DNA from: Thelephora terrestris
Lineage: Eukaryota > Basidiomycota > Agaricomycetes > Thelephorales > Thelephoraceae
Reading direction: 5' to 3'
Length of the DNA: 64,000 nt
Assembly (NCBI GenBank): GCA_015956445.1
Contig: WIUZ02000009.1
Span: forward strand, 868,001-932,000
Below the pieces are notes generated by a model. That model did not search any database. It was not told where the DNA came from and worked only from the letters and a program-made list of their open reading frames with translations. Position 1 is the first letter of the stretch, and each line of letters opens with the position of its first letter. Positions 5,674 to 17,907 of the stretch are shown here, in pieces. The translations under genes were made by a program, and so were the position numbers.

Positions 5674-6655
5674 GCCCCAGAGTCCACGCCACACTGACCT
5701 GCCGTGTTGCCAGTCCAAAGATGTTCCGCTCTGTTAGCTATTCCGATATGCGCATGACTTGTATCTCAAATGTTTGAAACCATGCCCCCACTCCAAATGT
5801 TATCTCCATATTGCATGTTCTCAGTACGGTAATTCGTTAGAAACGTGTTAAGACGCGTGAAGGATCGATGTTTCTGATTCTCTCATCGTACTTATGGTCA
5901 AACTTTCTCACAACGTGTTTTAGAATCATCAATGGGTGGAACCAAATCGAGACAAAAGGACTGGCACTACCTTCGGAAGTCTTATAGGAATACAGTCGAA
6001 TAGCTCTAATTGCATAGTATCTTATTGCATAAATCCTAAAATGCATCGGATTTCGGCCAGAACAATGGTGGTACAGGGGGGCGCTTGAAAATAATGCATA
6101 GACCTTGGGATGCCTTCTGTCAGCCATTTATGCAGGTAGGCCACCTCGCTTACAACCATCCGACATCGGACCGCGTGGTCATTTTTACTAGTGGAAGAGA
6201 TAGACAATGACCGGGACCAGGTGGCAAGTTGAAACAATGCAAAAGCGACTATGCAATTGATTAAATAAATAAAATTAGCCGTTCGCCCTAAATTTCCCAA
6301 CCATAACTTAAGGGGCCCTGCCCTCAAAGCCGCTGGCACAAGGTGAAATTACACGATGAGATGTAGAATGCTGGACTTATGGTTTGTTGGTCACGCATTT
6401 GAGTTAGTCACAACACGTTACGTATTTGTCACACGCGTTGTCCCTGCATAAATTGTCTAAATGCATAGGATTTTCATGCGACCTATGTCATGCAGTTAGA
6501 GCTATTCAACTGTATCCGACATTTTTTTGTCAGAAAGAAGCTCCACTCACTTATGTCTATGGCAACGGCACGAGATCAGCGAAGGTTTGGGTTGGAAGGT
6601 GTTGGGCACGCGTGGCGTAGGCACTGAACAGCGTGAGACGATGCCAGAGCAATGC
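5674..6655. other. Spacer with inverted-repeat remnant
   Basis: No credible gene. Contains the inverted repeat described separately (5991-6047 with 6461-6515) and several ATGCAT motifs. Open frames here are shadows of the repeat. Confidence 0.4.
5991..6515. repeat. Non-autonomous element with imperfect inverted repeats
   Basis: The reverse complement of 5991-6047 matches 6461-6515 over about 55 bases with indels. The best core is TTAGAGCTATTC followed by RACTGTAT, present once in each orientation. The roughly 410 bases between the arms are A/T-rich and non-coding, which fits a MITE or the remains of one. Target duplications could not be assigned. Confidence 0.45.
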
Positions 6656-6711
6656 TACTGCGAGTTTCGAAATAGTTGGCACGCGTGGGAAGTGCCGCGT
6701 CGTGAAAAATA
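6656..6711. repeat. Left inverted repeat of transposon 1
   Basis: Matches the reverse complement of 11036-11092 with a modest number of mismatches; the shared core is TTTCGAAA then AGTTGGCAC. Related blocks occur near 11740-11790 and 15850-15910 around transposon 2. Confidence 0.6.
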
Positions 6712-6864
6712 GACGACTTCAGACAGTGACGACTTACTTCACCTTCTTCTTCAACAGCAAGACAATATCACCGGCCCACTTCTCAACGGAAATATTTCCC
6801 ACCAACAGTATAAGCGACAGTACCAGTTTGGGATCCCAGAGACTTCGTCAGACAAGATTGCGCC

Positions 6865-8044
6865 ATGAGAGGCAAGAAAATATCAGCTGATCTTAAGCGC
6901 ACCATCCTGGCCTTGGGCGACCTTCACTCTGTCTCCGAAATTGAGAGCCTGACAGGCGTAAGCCGCCGTCAAATTTACCGCATCAGAAAATATTGGGAAA
7001 CCACTGGATCCGTTGAACCTGAGCAGGCAGGGAGGAGGACTGGGAGGCATCGTTTTCTCTCGCAAAATGAAGAAGCAGTGAGTCTCTTTTTTAACTCTCA
7101 CAGAGCTGCCCTCAACGAAGTTCGGTCCTAGTACGTAGTTGAGTGTGTGCGAAGAACACCCGACGTTTACCTCGAAGATCTCAGCTCCCAAATTGCGATC
7201 AACTTAGGGGTCACAGTCTCTCGCAAGTTAGTTTGGGAAACACTCAGACGAAATGGTCTTACCCTAAAGAAGGTGACTACCATCTTTTCCCCCTTGTTAC
7301 TGAGGATGAAACTGTGGCCTAGGCATCGTGTGTTGCGGCAGAACGCTCGGCTTTCAAACGAGCTGAATATGTGCTCCGTATGTCGGGCCGGTACACGATT
7401 GATCAACTTGTTTTCACAGACGAAACTTCCTTCGACCGCCGTGTCGCGCACCGCAAGAATGCGTGGGCAAGCAAGGGACAGCGTGTGTCAACAAAAGTTT
7501 TACTCTGCAGGGGCAAGCGGTGAGTGACTAGTCAAATTACTTTTGTTTGATTGACGTTTCGTCAGTTATTCAGTTCTCCCAGCATTAACACTTGATGGGA
7601 TCATTGCCCTGGATATTGTTCAAGGCTCCTACGATGGACAGCGCTTCAAAAAATTCATTCACGATCTCCTGGACGAGATGAATGAATTTCCTGGCCCGAA
7701 GTCAGTTGTAGTGATGGACAACTGTCGGATCCACAAATCCCGAGATGTCTCGAAGATGATTTACGAACGGTAATAATCTGCCACCAGATTCTCTTACTGT
7801 CACTCACTCGGATCTATTTAGGGGCATGCGATGCGAATTTCTCCCCCCCTACTCTCCAGATTATAACCCAATTGAGTTGGCATTCTCCGCAATCAAGGCC
7901 GACTTTCGCCACTGCTTGCCCGCACTTGAGCGTAACATGACAACCAGCAATGAAAAGGAGATTCTTGTGGCAATACATGACGCAGTTTTTTCCGTCACTC
8001 CCGAAGACGCCTGTGGGTGGTTTCGAAGGTGCGGGTACAGATGA
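6865..8044 (+). pseudogene. Tc1-like DD34E transposase, one nonsense codon
   Basis: Four exons: 6865-7272, 7323-7519, 7566-7769, 7822-8044 (344 codons including stop). The N-terminus is a helix-turn-helix DNA-binding domain (LTGVSRRQIYRIRKYWETTG). The catalytic RNase-H-like fold shows the first Asp in FTDETSFDRR, the second in VVMDNCRIHKS and a Glu in YSPDYNPIELAFS; 34 residues separate the second Asp and the Glu, the DD34E spacing of the Tc1 family. Splice sites join in frame and their positions are shared with the transposase at 11848. One in-frame TAG at 7129-7131, in the linker between the DNA-binding and catalytic domains, interrupts an otherwise complete protein, so the copy is probably inactive unless read through. 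All catalytic residues are still present, so loss is recent. Confidence 0.8.
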
Positions 8045-8075
8045 GGGTTTCCATTCAAAATACGGGTACATGTAA

Positions 8076-10818
8076 CTAGTGCTTCGCCCTGTTCCTGCCC
8101 TTGATCTTCTTGATTTTCGAAGATACTTTGGTTTTGATTGCACGTGCAGTTCCATCTGTCATACCCGGGATTATCTCCACCATGCGTTCCGCAGTGAGCG
8201 AATCAACCGCAAGTTCATCAAGATGGAAGTAACTGTGCTGATTGAAGAGATTCGTATAGTTGGTGAAGTAGTGGTTACCGCGGTCGGTGGTTTCAAGCTC
8301 CACGAAGAAGTCGGAGATGGTGGGGTACTCGACACTTTGATCATCGTTGCTTGGTGACCTGTACCTCTCCTTGTCAGCAGGAGGATTAGGTGGGATGTTT
8401 GTGTAGGAGGTAGTAGTATCTGGAGAATAAAAGGGCACAGTGGAAGGACCAGGGATTGGGTACGAAGGACCTGGGGGAACGTTCAAAAATCCGCCCGCCA
8501 GATACGGGTTCCACCCGGGGAACGGATTTGGTGGATAGCCGTATGCGGAATCGGAGGCCGGAGGTCTCCGACCTTTTGCTAAGACGGTCGGTTGGCCGGT
8601 AAGATCCGTAGGGAGCATTACCCGTGGATAGTTTTTGTAAACTCTCTCAAGTACCTCCTTTGGAGGACGTCTGTAGCTCTCCCACTCACTGTGATTCTAG
8701 ATAGATGGGCGCATGTCAGAAATCGCGAACATGGGAAAATTCAACCGCGTCTCACTATCATTGTAGCCCACATGGAAAGTTCCTCCATTGAGTAGCAATG
8801 GTGGGTAGCGTTTGTCAGCAACACACATGGAGCGTCACAGCGGGCGCAACGATTCTCCTTTCGGATCTTTTCAACGATCCCCGTCTCAGAGACGTTGGTA
8901 CTGTCAGACCCCGAGTCGTTTTCGATGTCTGAGTCTGACGTTCCTGATCCAATGTTTGGGTCAGGATCTCCTCGGACTTGCTTGGCTTTCTTCCGGGGCT
9001 GAGAATGATTCATATGTCAGTTGCCATAGGACCCTGATCCAGAAAATGAATGCCTTTTTTGGACCACCGTGTTTTCGCTTTGTTGCCGGTGCTTTCCCCT
9101 TCATCTTCTTCTTACCCTTCACACTGGGGGCAAGGGGTCACTTACCCAGCGAATACATTGTGATTACATTGTGATTTTTTAGACAATGGGTCCAGCCTGT
9201 AGCCATGAGGTACATGCTGAGTTCTTTTACAAAGTACCCATCAATGTGACCACAATGTGGACAGTGGGTCCATCTTGATCACTTTTACAAAGTGCCCATC
9301 AATTCAATCACAATGTACCCTGTGGGTCCATGCAGGATACATTCCATCAAAGTGGCCACTGGGCACTTTGTGAAAGAAACCCCTGGTTTCTTTCACAATT
9401 TTGTTCACAATGTAATTTACTGGGTGCCTGAGCCACTCATTGGGAGTTATTTCAAAAAGTACCCAGAAATGCGACCATAATGTCCCCAGGGGGTTCTTCT
9501 CAATGTTTTCACAATGAACTCTCAATGTGGTTGGATTTCACAACGAACTCTCAAAGAAACCATTGAGTATCTGGTTGAATACTTTGCGGACACATTGTTG
9601 GATACTTTATGAAAGAACTCTCAATGAGTGGCTCCGGGGTATGTTGGACACATTGTAGGCAAAATTGTGAAAGAAACCAGGGGTTTCTTTCACAAAGTGC
9701 CCAGTGGCCACTTTGATGGATACTTTTACAATGTATCCTGCATGGACCCACAGGGCACATTGTGATCGAATTGATGGGCACTTTGTAAAAGTGATCAAGA
9801 TGGACCCACTGGCCACATTGTGGTCACATTGATGGGTACTTTGTAAAAGAACTCAGCATGTACCTCCTGGCCAAAGGCTGGACACATGGTTTAAAAAATC
9901 ACATTTTAATCACAATGTATCTGCTGGGTAAGTGACCCCTTGCCCCCAGTGTCATCTTCTTCGCCTTCTCCTTTCTCTTTGGCGCCTCTATCTCACCCTC
10001 ATCAGCATCCTCTGTGTCCGATACCCTCTCCACCTTATTTAAAACCTGGAGATCGATCCTCCATCCTGAAGCAAGGTCAGCATCGGCCAAGTTACTTTCC
10101 TTTTTGGCTCGGTCCCGAATTCGCTTTGCCCCAGCTTTCATCATACGCTTGTATGAGCGTTCGTCCGAGAGGGTGACCCATGCTTTTGAGCCCAGGCCGT
10201 TGCTAAACTTCCATGCAAGTTGGGGCACATGACCCTCCTTTAGGCGCATTTCCCCAGAAGCGACTTTGATGAACCTGGTCCAAGTAACGTCTTCACTGAG
10301 GAAAGTTTCGGACAACGTGTTTTTCCCAATTGGGAAAGCGAAGAGGGGAGAGAAAGGTCGGTTTACTGGTACAGTAAGTCCACAATTGTAATGGCATGCG
10401 CAAATCTGACCTTCTGTTCCTACTATCAATGGAACTTGGCTGTGCGTCACCTCCTATCAAGCGTTGCGGTCAAAATCCAGTGTCCATGAGGCTATCTGCC
10501 GGGTTGAGTGAAGCTCACCTCGTGACCCCTATTGTCACCATGTCTCGATCTCATTCCAGCTAACGTCTCTGCCACTTCTTGTGCAGTGGGCATAAAGTCG
10601 TCGTCCTCAGTTTGATTTCCTGCGGATTCAGGTGCCACGGGTTTGAAACGTTGGCCAGATCCATCCCGCTCGCTGCCGTCCGGGCCTCCTGACGATATAG
10701 GCGTTGCTGACCCTGAAATATCCCCAGGATTGCTAGAATTGTATCCTTCGGTGGTGGTTTTTTGGCTGCGTGTGCTGCGGCGGAGAGCCTGGCTCTCTAT
10801 GTTTTGTTTCTTTGACAT
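8076..10818 (-). pseudogene. Transposon 1 accessory gene with SAM-like C-terminus, split by a MITE
   Basis: Minus-strand multi-exon gene. The first exon starts at 10818 with an acidic, Ser-rich segment. The next (about 10450-9955) has a globular segment (FAFPIGKNTLSETF...TWTRFIKVA...KRMMKAGAKR) that aligns by eye with residues of the accessory protein at 13.7-14.0 kb. Then comes a basic KRKEKAKKM stretch cut by the MITE at 9122-9951 and resuming as KGKKKMKGKAPATKRK. Next are a Cys-rich piece (CARCDAPC, then MEELSMWATMI) and a Pro/Tyr-rich linker. The C-terminal 85 residues (YPTISDFFVELE to IKKIKGRNR) resemble a SAM domain. The MITE probably abolishes the full protein unless it is spliced out with its flanks. 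Convergent with the transposase. Function unknown; DNA or chromatin binding is a guess from composition only. Confidence 0.6.
9122..9951. mobile_element. 830-base palindromic MITE, CACTG ends (CACTA/EnSpm-like)
   Basis: Ends are perfect inverted repeats for at least 29 bases (CACTGGGGGCAAGGGGTCAC then TTACCCAGC). Similarity continues inward, so roughly 330-base arms (9122-9460 and 9610-9951) fold on each other, leaving a short unpaired centre. It is flanked by the direct 3-base duplication TCA (9119-9121 and 9952-9954). CACTG termini with a 3-base target duplication are the hallmark of the CACTA (EnSpm/CMC) superfamily; a KDZ-type affiliation is an alternative. There is no transposase inside; open frames within are by-products of the palindrome. 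Many short repeats (ACAATGT, GGGTCCA, TTTACAAAGT) make up the arms. Confidence 0.8.
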
Positions 10819-11035
10819 AGCGAGAAATGATCAGCGGTGACTGGGGTAGCCGAGCGCAACGAGAGATTTCCTTCGATCGCGATGAGCTCCAGGTTTAGTA
10901 CATGTATCGTTTCGGTCTATAATACTATCTGGAGTACCCTAGGTAGAGGTGGGCTTCACAGGAGCTTTGAAAATAGAAATCACGTTGTCATCGAGGCGAA
11001 ACACCCGAGCGAAATCTTCACTGTTCAAAGGTATG

Positions 11036-11092
11036 TATTTTTCACGACACGACAAAATTCACGTGTGCCAACTTTTTCGAAACCGGCAGTAA
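11036..11092. repeat. Right inverted repeat of transposon 1
   Basis: Reverse complement of the block at 6656-6711; see that entry. It lies about 220 bases upstream of the accessory gene's ATG (10818), so it probably also carries that gene's promoter. Confidence 0.6.
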
Positions 11093-11734
11093 AGAGGACG
11101 TCGTGACCAAAATTCCCGGGGCAGAATGCCCTGGGTCTTGTCGTTTTTTCATTTGCCTCCGTTGCGCAAAAAACACTAAGTTTATCGCAGCACGTGCCTA
11201 CCCCTTAGATGAGTCATCCTCCCCTTAAAGTTACTGTGCTTTGTCATCGTCACCTGTCACCGTACCCTTCCCGCACTTTGTTATCTCGGCACGGTGCCGG
11301 GAGTTCGCGATCAGCACCAACGCCCAACGGGAGGGTTACCAGCATCACCCCTCTCATTTCTCGACTCCCATTTTGCCACACCCGTCTCGCCGTTCTCGTC
11401 GACTCCTGCTGTCGTACATCGAATTTTTGTTTCCCACCCGCCTGCCTATCAGCCTTTGTATTAGGTTATCCATACACGATGTAGTGCTGGAAAAATTGCA
11501 GACTGGGGTCCCGCCCTCCCGAGCGGCACCTTCTTGCTCCACGTCCTACTGAGTTAGCGCTCGGTCCTACCTGACCCTTTTTGCTACTCGTGTCCCTCTC
11601 CTAGTAGACCGGACCTCGTATCGACATTGGATTACAGCTCAGCGCTCAGCCCCGGGCTCTGCCGCTTGTCGGCTCTATGCCTTATGTGACCTGTGACGAC
11701 TTGCAGAGAAATCGAGTTTTTGGCAGTGGCGCTT
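11093..11734. other. Spacer between two transposons
   Basis: C/T-rich, with no recognisable gene. The outer ends of both transposons probably lie here: CCCGGG-containing segments occur near 11115 and 11648 and again near 15940 beyond transposon 2, but the boundaries cannot be set by eye. Confidence 0.35.
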
Positions 11735-11847
11735 ATGGCTGTTTCAGAAAAGGTTGGCCAGATCGGTCGTATTGTAGAAAGAAAAAAAAGCGTGATCACC
11801 CCGAAAAAATATTGATCCGACACTTGTCAACTTCAGACCCCTCCATC

Positions 11848-13036
11848 ATGCGTGGTCAACGCTTCTCTGAAGACATTCGTTGGTCGGTTGTCCGCGCTCA
11901 GTACCATGGACTTGACCATACGGCAACAGCGGCGTTGACTGGGGTCAGCGAACGGCAGGTTCGACGAATTCGGGACTGCTACAAGCGGACAGGTGATGTT
12001 CGGACCGAGCACGATCAGCTGGAAGTGGAGACACGCGGGCGGATTTCTAAGTTGACTATGGAGCACCGACAGGCAAGACAAGATACTATATTGCTCACCT
12101 GTTCACTGACCGCTTTTCTGTCAAGTTCATCGAGTCTTATCTTGCTAGGAACTGTGCAACATATCTTGATGAACTCCAGGCAGAACTTCGCTCTCGGTTC
12201 GGACTTCAAGTCTCCATTTCTACTCTCTGTGTGTACCTCAAAACTATTGGCTACACATATAAAAAGGTAGGAATACAAACCCAATCTTTCTCTCGTGCTA
12301 ACCTGTTCAGATCGACAAGGCTTCCATTGAAAGAAGTGAAGATGCTCGTGCGCGGTACCGGGCTCGCATGAATACAAGATACCTTCCTGAGCAGCTCGTA
12401 TTTGTTGACGAGTCATCATCGGATCGTCGCATTCGTCGCCACTATGGACGATCACTGTTCGGTGAGCGGGCACATAAAAAATCTATCTTCCTTCGCGGAA
12501 AACGGTACCTCCAATATTTGACTTTGTGGTCTGGCGCTCAGCATTATGTATAGGTTCTCTGTGCTGCCTGCTCTATCCTTAGATGGGATCCTTGCCGTGA
12601 AAATTGTTGAAGGCTCTTTTAACACCGAGAAATTCAAAGAATTCATCGACGGTCTGCTGGACCATATGACACCATTCCCAGGGCCAAACTCTATTATCAT
12701 TATGGATAACTGCCGCATTCACCGTGCTCGATCTGTCCGGGAAATGATCGAAGAACGGTAGGTGATGTTTGTTGCCCTTCGACTCTTCATGCCACTGATA
12801 AACTGGTCAGTGGGATGATGTGCGAATTCTTACCAAGCTACTCCCCCGATTTCAACCCAATTGAGCTCGCATTTTCAAAATTCAAGGCGCATATCAGACG
12901 AAGGCAACATGTTCTTGCCTCCATGACTTGTGATGACGATGACAATTTTGATTGTGTTTTATTCCTGCATGACGCGATTTGGTCAGTCACACCAGAAGAT
13001 GCAGAGGGTTACTTCAAGCACTGTATTTACTGCTAA
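11848..13036 (+). pseudogene. Tc1-like DD34E transposase, one frameshift
   Basis: Exons 11848-12266, 12311-12504, 12554-12757, 12811-13036, with the same three intron positions and phases as the transposase at 6865. The helix-turn-helix is visible as LTGVSERQVRRIRDCYKRTG; catalytic motifs are FVDESSSDRR, IIMDNCRIHRA and YSPDFNPIELAFS, again DD34E. Exons 2-4 sum to whole codons, but exon 1 has 419 bases: the frame changes near 12075-12087, between the DNA-binding segment and RFSVKFIESYLARNC. This is consistent with a single missing base, as no GT...AG intron fits there. Otherwise complete. The sequence differs clearly from transposon 1, so the two are separate lineages of one family, not a recent duplication. 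Confidence 0.8.
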
Positions 13037-13172
13037 GCTCGCTTGCTAAATAAACATACTAATATCAACACGACCGCAACCAGTTTGGGTGATAGGAGAG
13101 GAATTTGAAAAACAGAAAAAAAAACATAGGGGAGTTACACGCAAGTTGTTTTGAACCTAACCGCCATCTGCA

Positions 13173-15768
13173 ATGCCTCCCTATTCATCCAAACATGTCA
13201 CTCCAGCAGAGATTTCTTCCCCAGGTGAAGATGAGGCCTCTGGTGAGGATGATTACCCCAACAGGCCTGAGGCAAGGGACTCGCTCGAGTGGATCCAGAC
13301 CCCACCTTCCCCCTCTTTCTCAATATCAACAACGGTATCAGAACTTGAACTCGAGCAGGGTGACGCTCTGCTGCAGGTCAAAAAGTTGAAGGCAGAGGAG
13401 GACCTTGACCACTTGCCATCTGATCCTGAAGTTAGTTCCAGTGACAGAGACAACGGACCGGTTCCAAAAAAGAGAAAGATGGATTCAATAGGTGCAAAGC
13501 CCAGAGGTAAAAAGAAAAAAGTACGAGCATTCACCCTGATATGATGTTTCCTGAAGAGTCAACAATTGGCAGGAAAAGTGGCCACGGATACAAACCGGCG
13601 CAGGTCTGGAAGCAAGGGGAAAAAAAGAACAAAATCAGGTGCGTGGAGTCGCTCCAGTAGGATTTGGGTGGATGAACCTATTTGGCAGCACGAGCAGTCA
13701 GCTATTCCGATGAGGACTCCAGCAAGGAAGAGCGTCTACAACTGGACTGTGTACTTCCAATCCAGGGCATAAACTGGCCAGTGGTGGTTCCGGTCACCAC
13801 ACCGTGGAGTTCATTTCTATTGAATGTTGCACGAGAACTCAATGTGAAGCCCGAAGAGATAAAATTGTCTTACAGGTTCTCGAGTTTCACGGCGGCCGAG
13901 AATTCTGAAGTTCTCTGCACACAGGATCATTATCGAACCATGATAACAAAGGCGAAGGACTTTTTGACTGGAAAGAAGAGAGTCCGTGGTGGTAAAGATT
14001 TTCGAGTTCACCTTGCACCTGTCTTCAAGAATCCTCTGCCAACCCCTGCTGTCGAAGCTGGTACGTCGAAAAAAGGAGCAAAAAAAGTGAGTGATGGATT
14101 TGTGATCTGTGATAGTGGTTGTGACGTGGCAAATAGAAGGGAAAATTGAAGGCTAAAGCGGTTGAGGACTCGGAGGATGAGACAGAGAAGAAGAACGAAA
14201 AAGCAAAAACAGACAAACTTTCGATTCAACTCGCACTAAAAAATGCCTGCGGTGTTAGTGGGCATGAGGTCTGCTGGATTGATGATGAAGGAAAACATAT
14301 CCAGCTCGCGGAAAAGGACCTAAGTAGTTGGGCATTGTGGATCGTGAGCAGCAGGTACTCCCCTCAAATCATTCATACTTACATCGCTATATTGACAGGG
14401 CTGGGGGAGAGCAACTGAATCAGAGTTGCCAAAAGTGCTCGTGAAGAAGTGGAAGAGAGAGCAGGCACGAAAAAAATCACTGCCAAAGAGTGCCAGCAAG
14501 GCCAGCAGATCGAGTCCCAAGCCTCGTGTGACCAACCCAAGTCCGGAACCAATCAAGCCTCCCACACCTATTGAAATTCTTACTCCCCCTACCCAGCCTG
14601 CAACAGCCGTTCACCCTCCTACATTTGCCTCACAGGACCCTAGTCAATTGCACACGCTCCACAACCCCCCAGGGGTCACCAACTATGATCCAACCGCTGT
14701 TGTGGCACAGTCTTCCGATTTTTTTCGGGACGTCCAACCATATCGACTGGTCAATCGCACACTCACAACACCCACACAACACCCGATTCCATATAACTCT
14801 GTTATGTCTGGCCCCAATTCTCAGAACTTTCCCATGTACCCACAAAATCCTCACCAGCACCACCCGTCAACCGAAACCTACCGACCTGTGGGGGGCAACC
14901 AATCTGTGTACCCAATCACGTCTACAAGCTATCCCCAACAGCCAGCTTACTATGCTGCTGTTCCAGAGCGACAGCACCCCACTCCTTGTGAGCTTCGGTA
15001 CTGAATTTTTTATCAACCCCTTGCGCTGACTTCAACAAACCAGCATATCATGAACCGGTGTACCACGAGTTCCACCGACCAGCCTACCGCCCCGAAATTC
15101 GTGACCCCTACCCCTACCGCCCCGAAATTCGTGACCCTTACCCCTACCGCACCGGAACCCATGACCCCCACCCTTATCGCACTGATTTTCGTGACCCCTA
15201 CCCCTACCGCACTGAGTTTCGTGACCCGTGGCAAACCGGCTCGTGCAACTCCTACCACACTGGCTCTTATGACACCTACCACACCAATTTCCGTGATCCT
15301 CCTCATGCTGAACCCTACCGCACTGAATATCTTGAACCCCGTCGCGCTGATTCCCGCAGATCCCTGTGGAGTGGTTCCATCGAACCCCGCCAAGCCCGTT
15401 CCCCCCAAACCCGCAATGGATCTGGTCCTACTGGCGTTCCCACTCGCCTCTCCTCAAACTCGCCTCACAACCGCCCAGGACGTGATCACCAGGAAGATGT
15501 CCCATTCCCCACCCTGCAGGATTGGTTTTCCAGCATTGACAATGATCGCACACGGAGTGGCTACCAAGATCAGTTCTCAGAATACAGTCACGCGTTTGAA
15601 CTTCGCGGATTGACCACACTTCTGGACCTGGAAGGACTGGAACCAGGTCAACTCTTTGACCAGTTCGGTCTCTCGGAGGCAGAAGCTCGTCGCCTCCTCA
15701 CATTTGCCGAGGAAGACATCCGGGCCATCCGAAGAAGTAGCACTGGCACTCCCCATAGTCATACTTAG
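13173..15768 (+). CDS. Transposon 2 accessory protein with SAM-like C-terminus
   Basis: Spliced plus-strand gene. Exon 1 (13173-13520) encodes an acidic, Ser-rich N-terminus ending in basic KKRKMDSIGAKPRGKKKK, a likely nuclear localisation signal. A globular segment follows (about 13700-14090: WPVVVPVTTPWSSFLLNVAR, then EEIKLSYRFSSF), in length and pattern like a ubiquitin/PB1-type fold. Next comes SIQLALKNACGVSGHEVCW to LAEKDLSSWALWI, then a long Pro/Gln/Tyr-rich region (intron sites GTGAGC near 14343 and 14988). A tandem repeat of YRPEIRDPYP-like units precedes a C-terminal SAM-like segment (FPTLQDWFSSID to DIRAIRR). The splice choice at 13573-13690 is uncertain. Homologous, segment by segment, to the accessory gene of transposon 1. 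Function unknown. Confidence 0.6.
15086..15245 (+). repeat. 30-base tandem repeat in accessory gene
   Basis: About five imperfect 30-base units, built on GTGACCCCTACCCCTACCGC, encode successive YR(P/T)E(I/F)RDPYP decapeptides. The first two units are nearly identical, so slippage is recent. The region continues as diverged RDP-containing units to about 15300. Confidence 0.75.
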
Positions 15769-15953
15769 CCCCGCATTCCCAAAACTTGTATCTTTGGACT
15801 GCTGTTGCATCTATGCAACGAAAATTTATTGTGCCAATTATTTTTTTATTTATTTTTATTTTTCGAGAAAACGGGCGTGGCCAACTATTTTCGAATCGGC
15901 AATAATAAAGATAGTTCTCCAAGACCCGGTACTTACGTCCCGGGAATATCAAC

Positions 15954-17907
15954 ATGGTTCGCCTTCGGTGTTCGAATATCCCCTCCCTAAGACTCCTTGC
16001 AGCTGAAGTTTCCTCCTCTCTACTCCGTCCTCGGTGTCCACTCAATCCCTCCTTCACGAGGAACCTCACCACCACCACGACCGATCGACTACCTTCTCGT
16101 CGACTCTCCAATAGGCCAGACCCAAAGTCTCTTATGATGGATCTGGAGAACGAAATCTTTAACTATACTACCGGGCGTTTCCTGTACGTCTCCTACATCT
16201 TGTCTCGTCTTTGTCCAACTCGTATTGCGACGTACTCAGCGCCAACGAAGCCCATCACCTCCGAGAGCGCAGACGCGTCTTCGACATCCCCGGACTCTTC
16301 AAAATCATTGCTAAGGCAATGAGCTGCGAGACTGAACAGATCGTCGACTTTCGAAAGCTCGGAGAGGGTGGCCTCAACCGTGTCTTTCTCATTACCCTGG
16401 ACACCGAATTTCAGCTCGTTGCGCGCATCCCGTATCCCCTCCTTGTTCCCAAGGCGTACGCTGTCGCCAGTGAAGTCGCTACTATGGACTTCCTTCGTTC
16501 CAGGGGGCTCCCTATTCCCGAGGTCTACGCGTATTCCTTTACGTCAAACAACGAGGCCGAGACGGAATACATTCTAATGGAATACGTGAAAGGCACAGAC
16601 TTGATCCAGATATGGTCCGGTCTCAAGGAGGATGAAATTATCTTCCTGATGGACCAGCTCGCGAAGGTCGAGTCTATCATGATGTCCATCTCTTTTCCCG
16701 CTGGCGGGAGCATTTACTACGCCAGTGACCTGAAGGAGCTGTCAGGAAACGAGGGCATCCTACTCGATGAGCAGGTTGAGAGCATCGCGCTCGAGAAGAA
16801 GCGATTCTGTATAGGCCCTGATGTATCGGTACCGCTGTGGTATGGGCGAAGGGAACAACTGAACGTCTTCCGAGGACCATGTACGTCGCACTTCTCTTGT
16901 CTCTTCTGCCTCTTCTGCCTCTTCTTTACCAATCGACGACCATAGATGAAGACGCCAAATCGGTGCTGGTCGCGGGAGCCAAGAAAGAGCTCGCCTATCT
17001 CGAGCAGTTCGGCGCACCGAGGGCACCTTACCAACGCTTCCGAAGGGAGTATTACAAATACGAGAAGCAGACACCGTCGGACCACGTCAAGAACCTTGGT
17101 CACTATCTCCGTCTCGCGCCTTCGCTCGTGCCAGATGATGACTCCCTCAGCGCTTTCTGCATCCGCCACCCCGACCTCACCGACAGCAATCTCAGGGTTT
17201 CGACAGATTCTGGCGGCTTGCAGATCCTTAGCGTGTTGGACTGGCAGCACGCTGCTGTCCTACCCCTCTTCCTCCACGCCGGTATGCCCGAATTCATCCA
17301 GAACGAAGAGGACGACCTCTCTCAAAAGATGGTCAAGCCTGAACTACCGGATGATTTCGACAAGCTACCGGAAGAAGACCAAGATCGGGAAAGGGAGCTC
17401 TTCCGTCGTCGTCTTGTTCACTATCATTACAACCTGAGCACAGCGACGCACAACAGGATCCATCACAAGGGTCTGGTCTATCCGTTAAACCCTTTCCGCC
17501 GCCGCATCTTCATTCATGCAACCGCTATGTGGGAGGGTGAGACGATCAAGTTGCTGTATGCGCTGATAGATTTGGTGCTTGGCTGGGAGGATATTGCGAC
17601 GGACGGCACACCATGTCCGGTCGTGTTCACAGAGAAGGAGATTGTCGCGGCGGAGGAGCTGTATCAGGCTTTGGGGAACGCAGAAAGGGGTGAGAGGTGG
17701 CTGAGGGAGAATGTCGGCTACGGGGAGGAGACCTGGGTGCTCGCCGCTCACTACGAGGCAGCCAAGGCATTCGGTCAGGAGGTGAAGCGAAGGACTTTGA
17801 AGGCATGTGCGGAGGACGAAGAGACGACGAAGGAGGCGTACGCCGTGATCGAGGCGAACTGGCCCTTGGACGATATGGACGAAGAGGAGTTAGAGGAGTA
17901 CAAGTAG
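15954..17907 (+). CDS. AIM9-like mitochondrial phosphotransferase (APH/kinase fold), 610 aa
   Basis: Exons 15954-16183, 16240-16880, 16946-17907 sum to 611 codons. The N-terminus has an Arg/Ser/Leu-rich, acid-free presequence (about 45 residues) typical of mitochondrial import, then FNYTTGRFLANEAHHLRERR as in AIM9-like proteins of fungi. The aminoglycoside-phosphotransferase/choline-kinase fold follows: nucleotide-binding LGEGGLNRVF, a VARIPYP strand carrying the position of the usual Lys, hinge ILMEYVKGTDL, catalytic loop FCIRHPDLTDSN and metal-binding VLDWQHAAVLPLF. The C-terminal 200 residues are helical and acidic, ending DDMDEEELEEYK. The substrate of this family is not established. Complete, with consensus splice sites. 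Its upstream DNA is the end of transposon 2. Confidence 0.85.

Follow-up and report, generated by a model that had tools for sequence, protein, structure and literature searches.

A DD34E Tc1/mariner transposon lineage of Thelephora terrestris with a second conserved gene

Tc1/mariner elements, on which gene-delivery tools are built, serve as the model of a self-sufficient transposon with a single enzyme. Tc1 is described with a single open reading frame of about 1.3 kb (PMC7325037), and Tc1/mariner elements generally with a single open reading frame and lengths of 1.3 to 2.4 kb (PMC4188875); a preliminary description of the DNA analyzed here likewise states that such elements usually encode only the transposase. 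Here, we analyze two elements in a 64,000-nucleotide stretch of the genome of the basidiomycete Thelephora terrestris (contig WIUZ02000009.1, positions 868,001 to 932,000; C60:868001-932000 in our numbering; hereafter, the window). The elements resemble the IS630-Tc1-mariner group in the DDE_3 domain and DD34E signature of the transposase, the TA target and the TACAGC/TACTGC-type ends, but differ from single-gene Tc1/mariner elements, fungal ones included, in that elements of the window type are mostly 3.6-4.7 kb long and hold a second (accessory) gene within the repeats. As a single open reading frame is a usual rather than a catalytic feature, the window elements can be regarded as a variant of Tc1/mariner.

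In the MuDR/VANDAL elements of plants, two convergent genes are driven from the repeats. The window-type elements are similar in that the transposase and a second protein are transcribed inward from opposite ends, but the transposase family is different, and the likeness is one of layout. In the TBE and Tec elements of ciliates, too, a Tc1-related DD34E transposase shares the space between the repeats with additional genes, described as encoding a zinc-finger protein in TBE and a site-specific recombinase in Tec, where one gene lies in the complement (PMC7325037); these elements belong to a different kingdom. According to PMC12730594, VANDAL elements code for a factor that regulates their own silencing, TET/JBP genes occur in fungal DNA transposons of 11 lineages, and an alpha-kinase is found opposite to the transposase in IS3EU families; the latter two are, like the window elements, DNA transposons of fungi in which extra genes are conserved, but those genes encode enzymes, and the word mariner is absent from the main text of that paper. 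No gene of the present kind was found in fungal Tc1/mariner elements in the literature at the level of titles and abstract beginnings, mostly outside subscription journals and outside Repbase. The second conserved gene in a Tc1/mariner lineage thus appears to be new within that coverage, the transposase family being a known one.

The two elements of the window

Element 1 (6656-11091) is bounded by imperfect inverted repeats of ~80 nt that are 75% complementary and begin with TACTGC at both ends. Its features are:

6656..6735, + strand: left terminal inverted repeat, beginning with TACTGC, TA target site included
6865..8044, + strand: transposase 1, DD34E, 325 amino acids (aa), from gene model and Pfam DDE_3; exons 6865-7077, 7132-7272, 7323-7519, 7566-7769, 7822-8044
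8076..8696, - strand: last exon of accessory gene 1 (acceptor approximate), Pro-rich linker and helical tail (tail 8100-8333)
8756..8998, - strand: accessory gene 1 exon with the C-C-H/W module (8756-8878)
9121..9951, no strand: palindromic insert of 831 bp within accessory gene 1, with long inverted arms and CACTGGGGGCAAGGGG ends
9953..10450, - strand: accessory gene 1 exon with the predicted PB1-like domain (10037-10351)
10519..10818, - strand: first exon of accessory gene 1, acidic/basic N-terminus
11012..11091, - strand: right terminal inverted repeat

The second element has a core that resembles that of element 1, and the following features:

11734..11788, + strand: probable, weak left terminal repeat (score 27, best of 12 shuffles 24)
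11848..13036, + strand: transposase 2, DD34E, 329 aa, from gene model and Pfam DDE_3; exons 11848-12072, 12126-12266, 12311-12504, 12554-12757, 12811-13036
13173..15768, + strand: accessory gene 2, 767 aa, open six-exon model; exons 13173-13520, 13573-13638, 13715-14086, 14140-14343, 14399-14987, 15044-15768
13730..14032, + strand: predicted PB1-like beta-grasp domain of accessory protein 2 (structure prediction and structural comparison)
14221..14343, + strand: C-C-H/W module of accessory protein 2
15499..15732, + strand: helical C-terminal domain of accessory protein 2 (SAM- or HhH-like)
15853..15904, - strand: probable, weak right terminal repeat

Both transposase genes can be spliced to open DD34E proteins (325 and 329 aa), as the preliminary description had proposed, with 34 residues separating the E from the second D (counted by eye) and Pfam matches to DDE_3 (7.3e-29 and 9.7e-30, respectively); Pfam gave no MULE family for either. 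They have four intron positions in common, not three as originally reported, with equal phases (0, 0, 2, 2), and the introns in the window gene models are short (44-76 nt), in keeping with a fungal genome. The TA target site and terminal inverted repeats typical of Tc1/mariner are present, marginally so in element 2: of the inverted blocks described around each element, the pair of element 1 holds, whereas that of element 2 is weak (~70%, score 27 vs 24 for the best of 12 shuffles), so the outer limits of the latter (~11734-15904) are less certain.

Aligned with each other, the two accessory genes show the same order of segments, as initially described: PB1-like, Cys/Trp, Pro-rich linker and helical tail. 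Accessory gene 1, broken by the 831-bp insert, was read exon by exon. Accessory protein 2 contains a PKKRK stretch at aa 98; its linker (15083-15340) also includes degenerate direct repeats, mostly 30 nt apart, that encode RDPYPYRT-like units not seen in accessory 1. The gene order is convergent (+/-) in element 1, with start codons 209 and 273 bp inside the respective ends, and head-to-tail (+/+) in element 2. Copies of element 1 on C12 and C19 are 97.7-99.3% identical to it in long pieces and terminate at the same bases, and ~70% identical relatives on C16, C3 and C58 all have the accessory gene.

Pairing, shared ends and selection across the genome

The searches covered 40.6 Mb of genome sequence in 60 contigs, and the resulting counts of loci are lower bounds. 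The 62 transposase matches were grouped by hand into 24 loci (the two C19 pieces were treated as a single split element, and C12:968907 was assigned to the C12:975062 copy). In nine genome searches, fragments of the accessory gene as queries yielded 22 distinct accessory loci at E <= 0.01, 20 of them no farther than 7 kb from a DD34E transposase match; because the queries were drawn from the elements, eight of the 22 are self-matches, and without these the count is 12 of 14. The 7 kb on either side of the 24 loci make up ~1% of the genome, so that ~0.1-0.2 accessory loci would be expected there by chance, by hand arithmetic that takes no account of the non-independence of transposition copies. 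The first of the two exceptions, C5:18206 (L039), is a broken orphan remnant; a palindromic-type repeat follows it downstream, and the 3.4 kb scanned contain no transposase match. The second is a 34-aa match (C3:251816, E 0.005) away from the listed transposases. Among the weaker matches, C23:432500 (E 0.027) adjoins a transposase, and C23:192535 (0.11) and C11:213525 (1.7) do not. Conversely, an accessory match lies within 7 kb of 21 of the 24 transposase loci, namely, both window elements, three on C12, two on C8, one each on C45 and C18, C23:433k, C23:621k, three on C16, one each on C3, C19, C58 and C56, two on C5 and one on C2; of those lacking a match, C23:655k is a 500-bp fragment.

Profiles for three blocks of the accessory protein (PB1-like, Cys/Trp and tail) were run in rounds 1, 2 and 3; the scores from rounds 2 and 3 are not independent because these rounds include rows from loci later scored. 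The round 1 profiles found L018, L019, L022, L029 and L032 without these as rows (best E 3e-9 to 1e-3), as well as L028/L034, ~97% identical to row L017. A weak round 1 match (0.23), read by eye, brought locus L024 into round 2, the match of L027 went from 0.013 to 1.6e-7 between the two rounds, and L031 (0.004) and L023 (0.09) emerged in round 2 though they were not rows. Most true loci score 35-105 bits; the background reaches at most 3.8 (PB1-like), 6.7 (Cys/Trp) and 1.9 bits (tail) in reversed frames, and 2.9 bits in the remaining window and at four control DDE_3 loci. No accessory match was found in the 3.5 kb scanned at each of these control places, of which, by eye, C60:984136 is pogo/CENP-B-like, C19:269543 and C8:684589 belong to another DDE family, and C1:2680426 contains no recognizable transposase.

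The two genes are convergent in 19 of 21 pairs. The only head-to-tail pairs, those of element 2 and C18, belong to elements that group as sisters in the tree of transposases (support 0.974), so one rearrangement could account for this order. Inverted repeats were sought, with 12 shuffles each, in 18 elements (L009-L012, L014, L016, L020/21, L033 and L034 were left out), and in 12 of these, repeats scoring above the shuffles surround both genes rather than the transposase alone. These 12 elements span 3.6-4.7 kb, except for one of 6.2 kb, and 10 have TA at both ends (L022 and L029 lack it at the aligned ends). Element 2 is marginal in this search, which failed for L013, L025, L026 and L031, and a repeat pair without TA in L028 was discounted. 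Copies on C8 and C45, 3,585 bp long and 99.94% identical, contain both the transposase and the accessory gene, have boundaries at TTACAGCGG repeats (TA plus repeat) and show no similarity beyond them. We take these sequence comparisons to show shared ends, movement as one unit and common ancestry of the second gene; given the 20 of 22 pairing and the repeats that enclose both genes, its original characterization as a conserved passenger or helper gene stands.

The transposase tree comprises, in our reading, eight groups, each with the accessory gene, and the deepest groups are about a third identical. Among the diverged relatives of element 1, the ratio of nonsynonymous to synonymous substitution rates (dN/dS) in computable pairs is 0.06-0.20 for the accessory gene, close to the 0.05-0.15 for the transposase; synonymous sites are near saturation or saturated (several pairs gave no value), so these values are rough. 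Amino acid change in both proteins of the element 1 group is nevertheless clearly held back, and the ratios show purifying selection on the second gene, which we conclude is an old, selected component of the transposon lineage.

Anatomy and possible role of the second protein

Pfam scans of accessory 2 and three exon pieces of accessory 1 gave no match above the curated cut-off, PB1 included; sub-threshold matches to PF04883 (0.0039) and PF10629 (0.038) were taken as chance. The hallmarks of PB1 domains are an OPCA motif or a conserved lysine. A model of the PB1-like part of the window protein, predicted from a two-row alignment, has a beta-grasp fold (bbabbab) with a predicted local distance difference test score (pLDDT) of 74, and PB1 or phox domains are named in 10 of the top 12 rows from the structural comparison; the part differs from the PB1 domains of aPKC, Par6, MEKK and NBR1 in the low identity (5-12% in those 12 rows) and the lack of a PB1 Pfam match, and its best hit in a PDB profile search has an E of only 0.15. 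A PB1-like fold is a prediction for the window's accessory copy. A similar search with the tail retrieved 8vd6 ('CAP REPEAT', 6.4e-5) over ~40 positions, with no stretch passing alone. In 15 of 16 loci examined, accessory gene 1 among them, a GT donor directly follows the W-x-x-x-I codon (the exception is C18); the C-C-H/W pattern itself is present in 13 of 13 rows, which were chosen for that likeness. No relatives were found in a search of viral contigs.

The explanation that we favor, on balance, is a DD34E Tc1/mariner lineage in which the transposase has a co-evolved second protein that would act in the nucleus to help or regulate transposition of the element itself. The PB1-like head and helical tail might mediate oligomerization, and the C-C-H module might bind zinc and DNA, or a partner; such an assembly could bring the transposase together with both element ends or direct all of these to chromatin. 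Because each gene usually begins a short distance inside its own repeat, the repeats could drive, and perhaps control, both genes. More tentatively, the elements may represent a fungal two-component Tc1/mariner clade, with transposition dependent on, or steered by, a dedicated partner that combines a PB1-like head with a zinc-type module and a polymer-forming helical tail, itself a member of an unnamed and perhaps large family whose true home would be the transposon.

It is less likely that the second protein is an anti-silencing factor that counters chromatin or methylation silencing of the element by the host. There are analogues in the TET/JBP enzymes of fungal transposons (proposed) and in VANDAL (stated), both in PMC12730594, and protein-interaction domains would fit the recruitment or blocking of host factors; however, the accessory pieces scanned contain no enzyme domain or Pfam match above the cut-off. 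A self-limiting regulator, that is, an assembly-forming protein that represses or titrates the transposase and keeps the copy number low, seems more doubtful still. It would agree with the small number of copies (at least 24 transposase loci in 40.6 Mb), and convergent genes could regulate one another through antisense transcription. Transposon repressors, however, are often derived from the transposase itself, a likeness that was looked at here only through separate Pfam scans of the two proteins. Transposons do capture genes, and elsewhere the transposase is the only gene described for Tc1 elements (PMC7325037), so the gene could be captured host cargo, of benefit to the host or to nothing and carried by chance; its presence in all eight transposase groups down to about a third identity, the conserved order and intron position, the selection in the element 1 group and the mere two of 22 loci off the listed transposases, one a remnant and the other a 34-aa match, make this improbable. 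That two unrelated neighbors were grouped by an artifact of nested repeats, in a region full of nested inserts, is contradicted by the 3,585-bp unit with both genes at two unrelated sites and by the repeats flanking both genes in 12 of 18 elements, and deserves hardly any credence.

Several observations weigh against a co-evolved helper of the proposed anatomy. In the structural comparison of the PB1-like part, Foldseek gave only one match at E <= 0.001 (2npt_A, 9.7e-4, TM-score about 0.56). The tail model is poor (pLDDT 57), and the original name 'SAM-like' is unconfirmed, the tail being perhaps SAM-like, perhaps HhH-like. The PB1-like domain is undetected by profile in L023, L024, L027 and L031 (1.4-4.1 bits, background level), as is the tail in L029, L030 and L032, so not every lineage shows the complete three-block anatomy. 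Near-identical copies have higher accessory dN/dS (0.22-0.56, from very few changes). The C15 transposase locus has no accessory match in 9.9 kb, also with its sister's tail as the query, and C11 retains, by eye, only a short remnant (profile 2.6 bits); inserts or stops disrupt many copies, and the pairing is known from one genome only. Every step beyond a second conserved transposon gene is inferred.

The retention of a selected second gene in a deep lineage suggests that part of the Tc1/mariner superfamily employs a partner to assemble, to reach its targets or to escape silencing. Similar proteins are probably widespread in Agaricomycete proteomes, and should the family be as common in fungi as we would expect, it would provide a home for many unnamed fungal proteins.

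Inserts and neighboring features

The 831-bp insert in accessory gene 1, which we take to be CACTA-like, has arms of 223 nt (94%) with TCA at either side, and is missing from the C12 and C19 copies of element 1, which hold other inserts. Stretches related to it are found in L011 and L013 and were noted by eye in L027 and L039. Kilobase-size inserts split other two-gene elements, mostly in the accessory half: L034/L028 (C5:494.2k-502.6k), L009, L011 and L014. Just upstream of element 1, a 26-nt inverted pair starting with TACAGTCGAATAGC, 474 nt apart, delimits 5991-6514, which looks like a non-autonomous Tc1/mariner-type element. Next to element 2, positions 16163-17907 contain a multi-exon gene that, by eye, resembles one for a phosphotransferase-type kinase.

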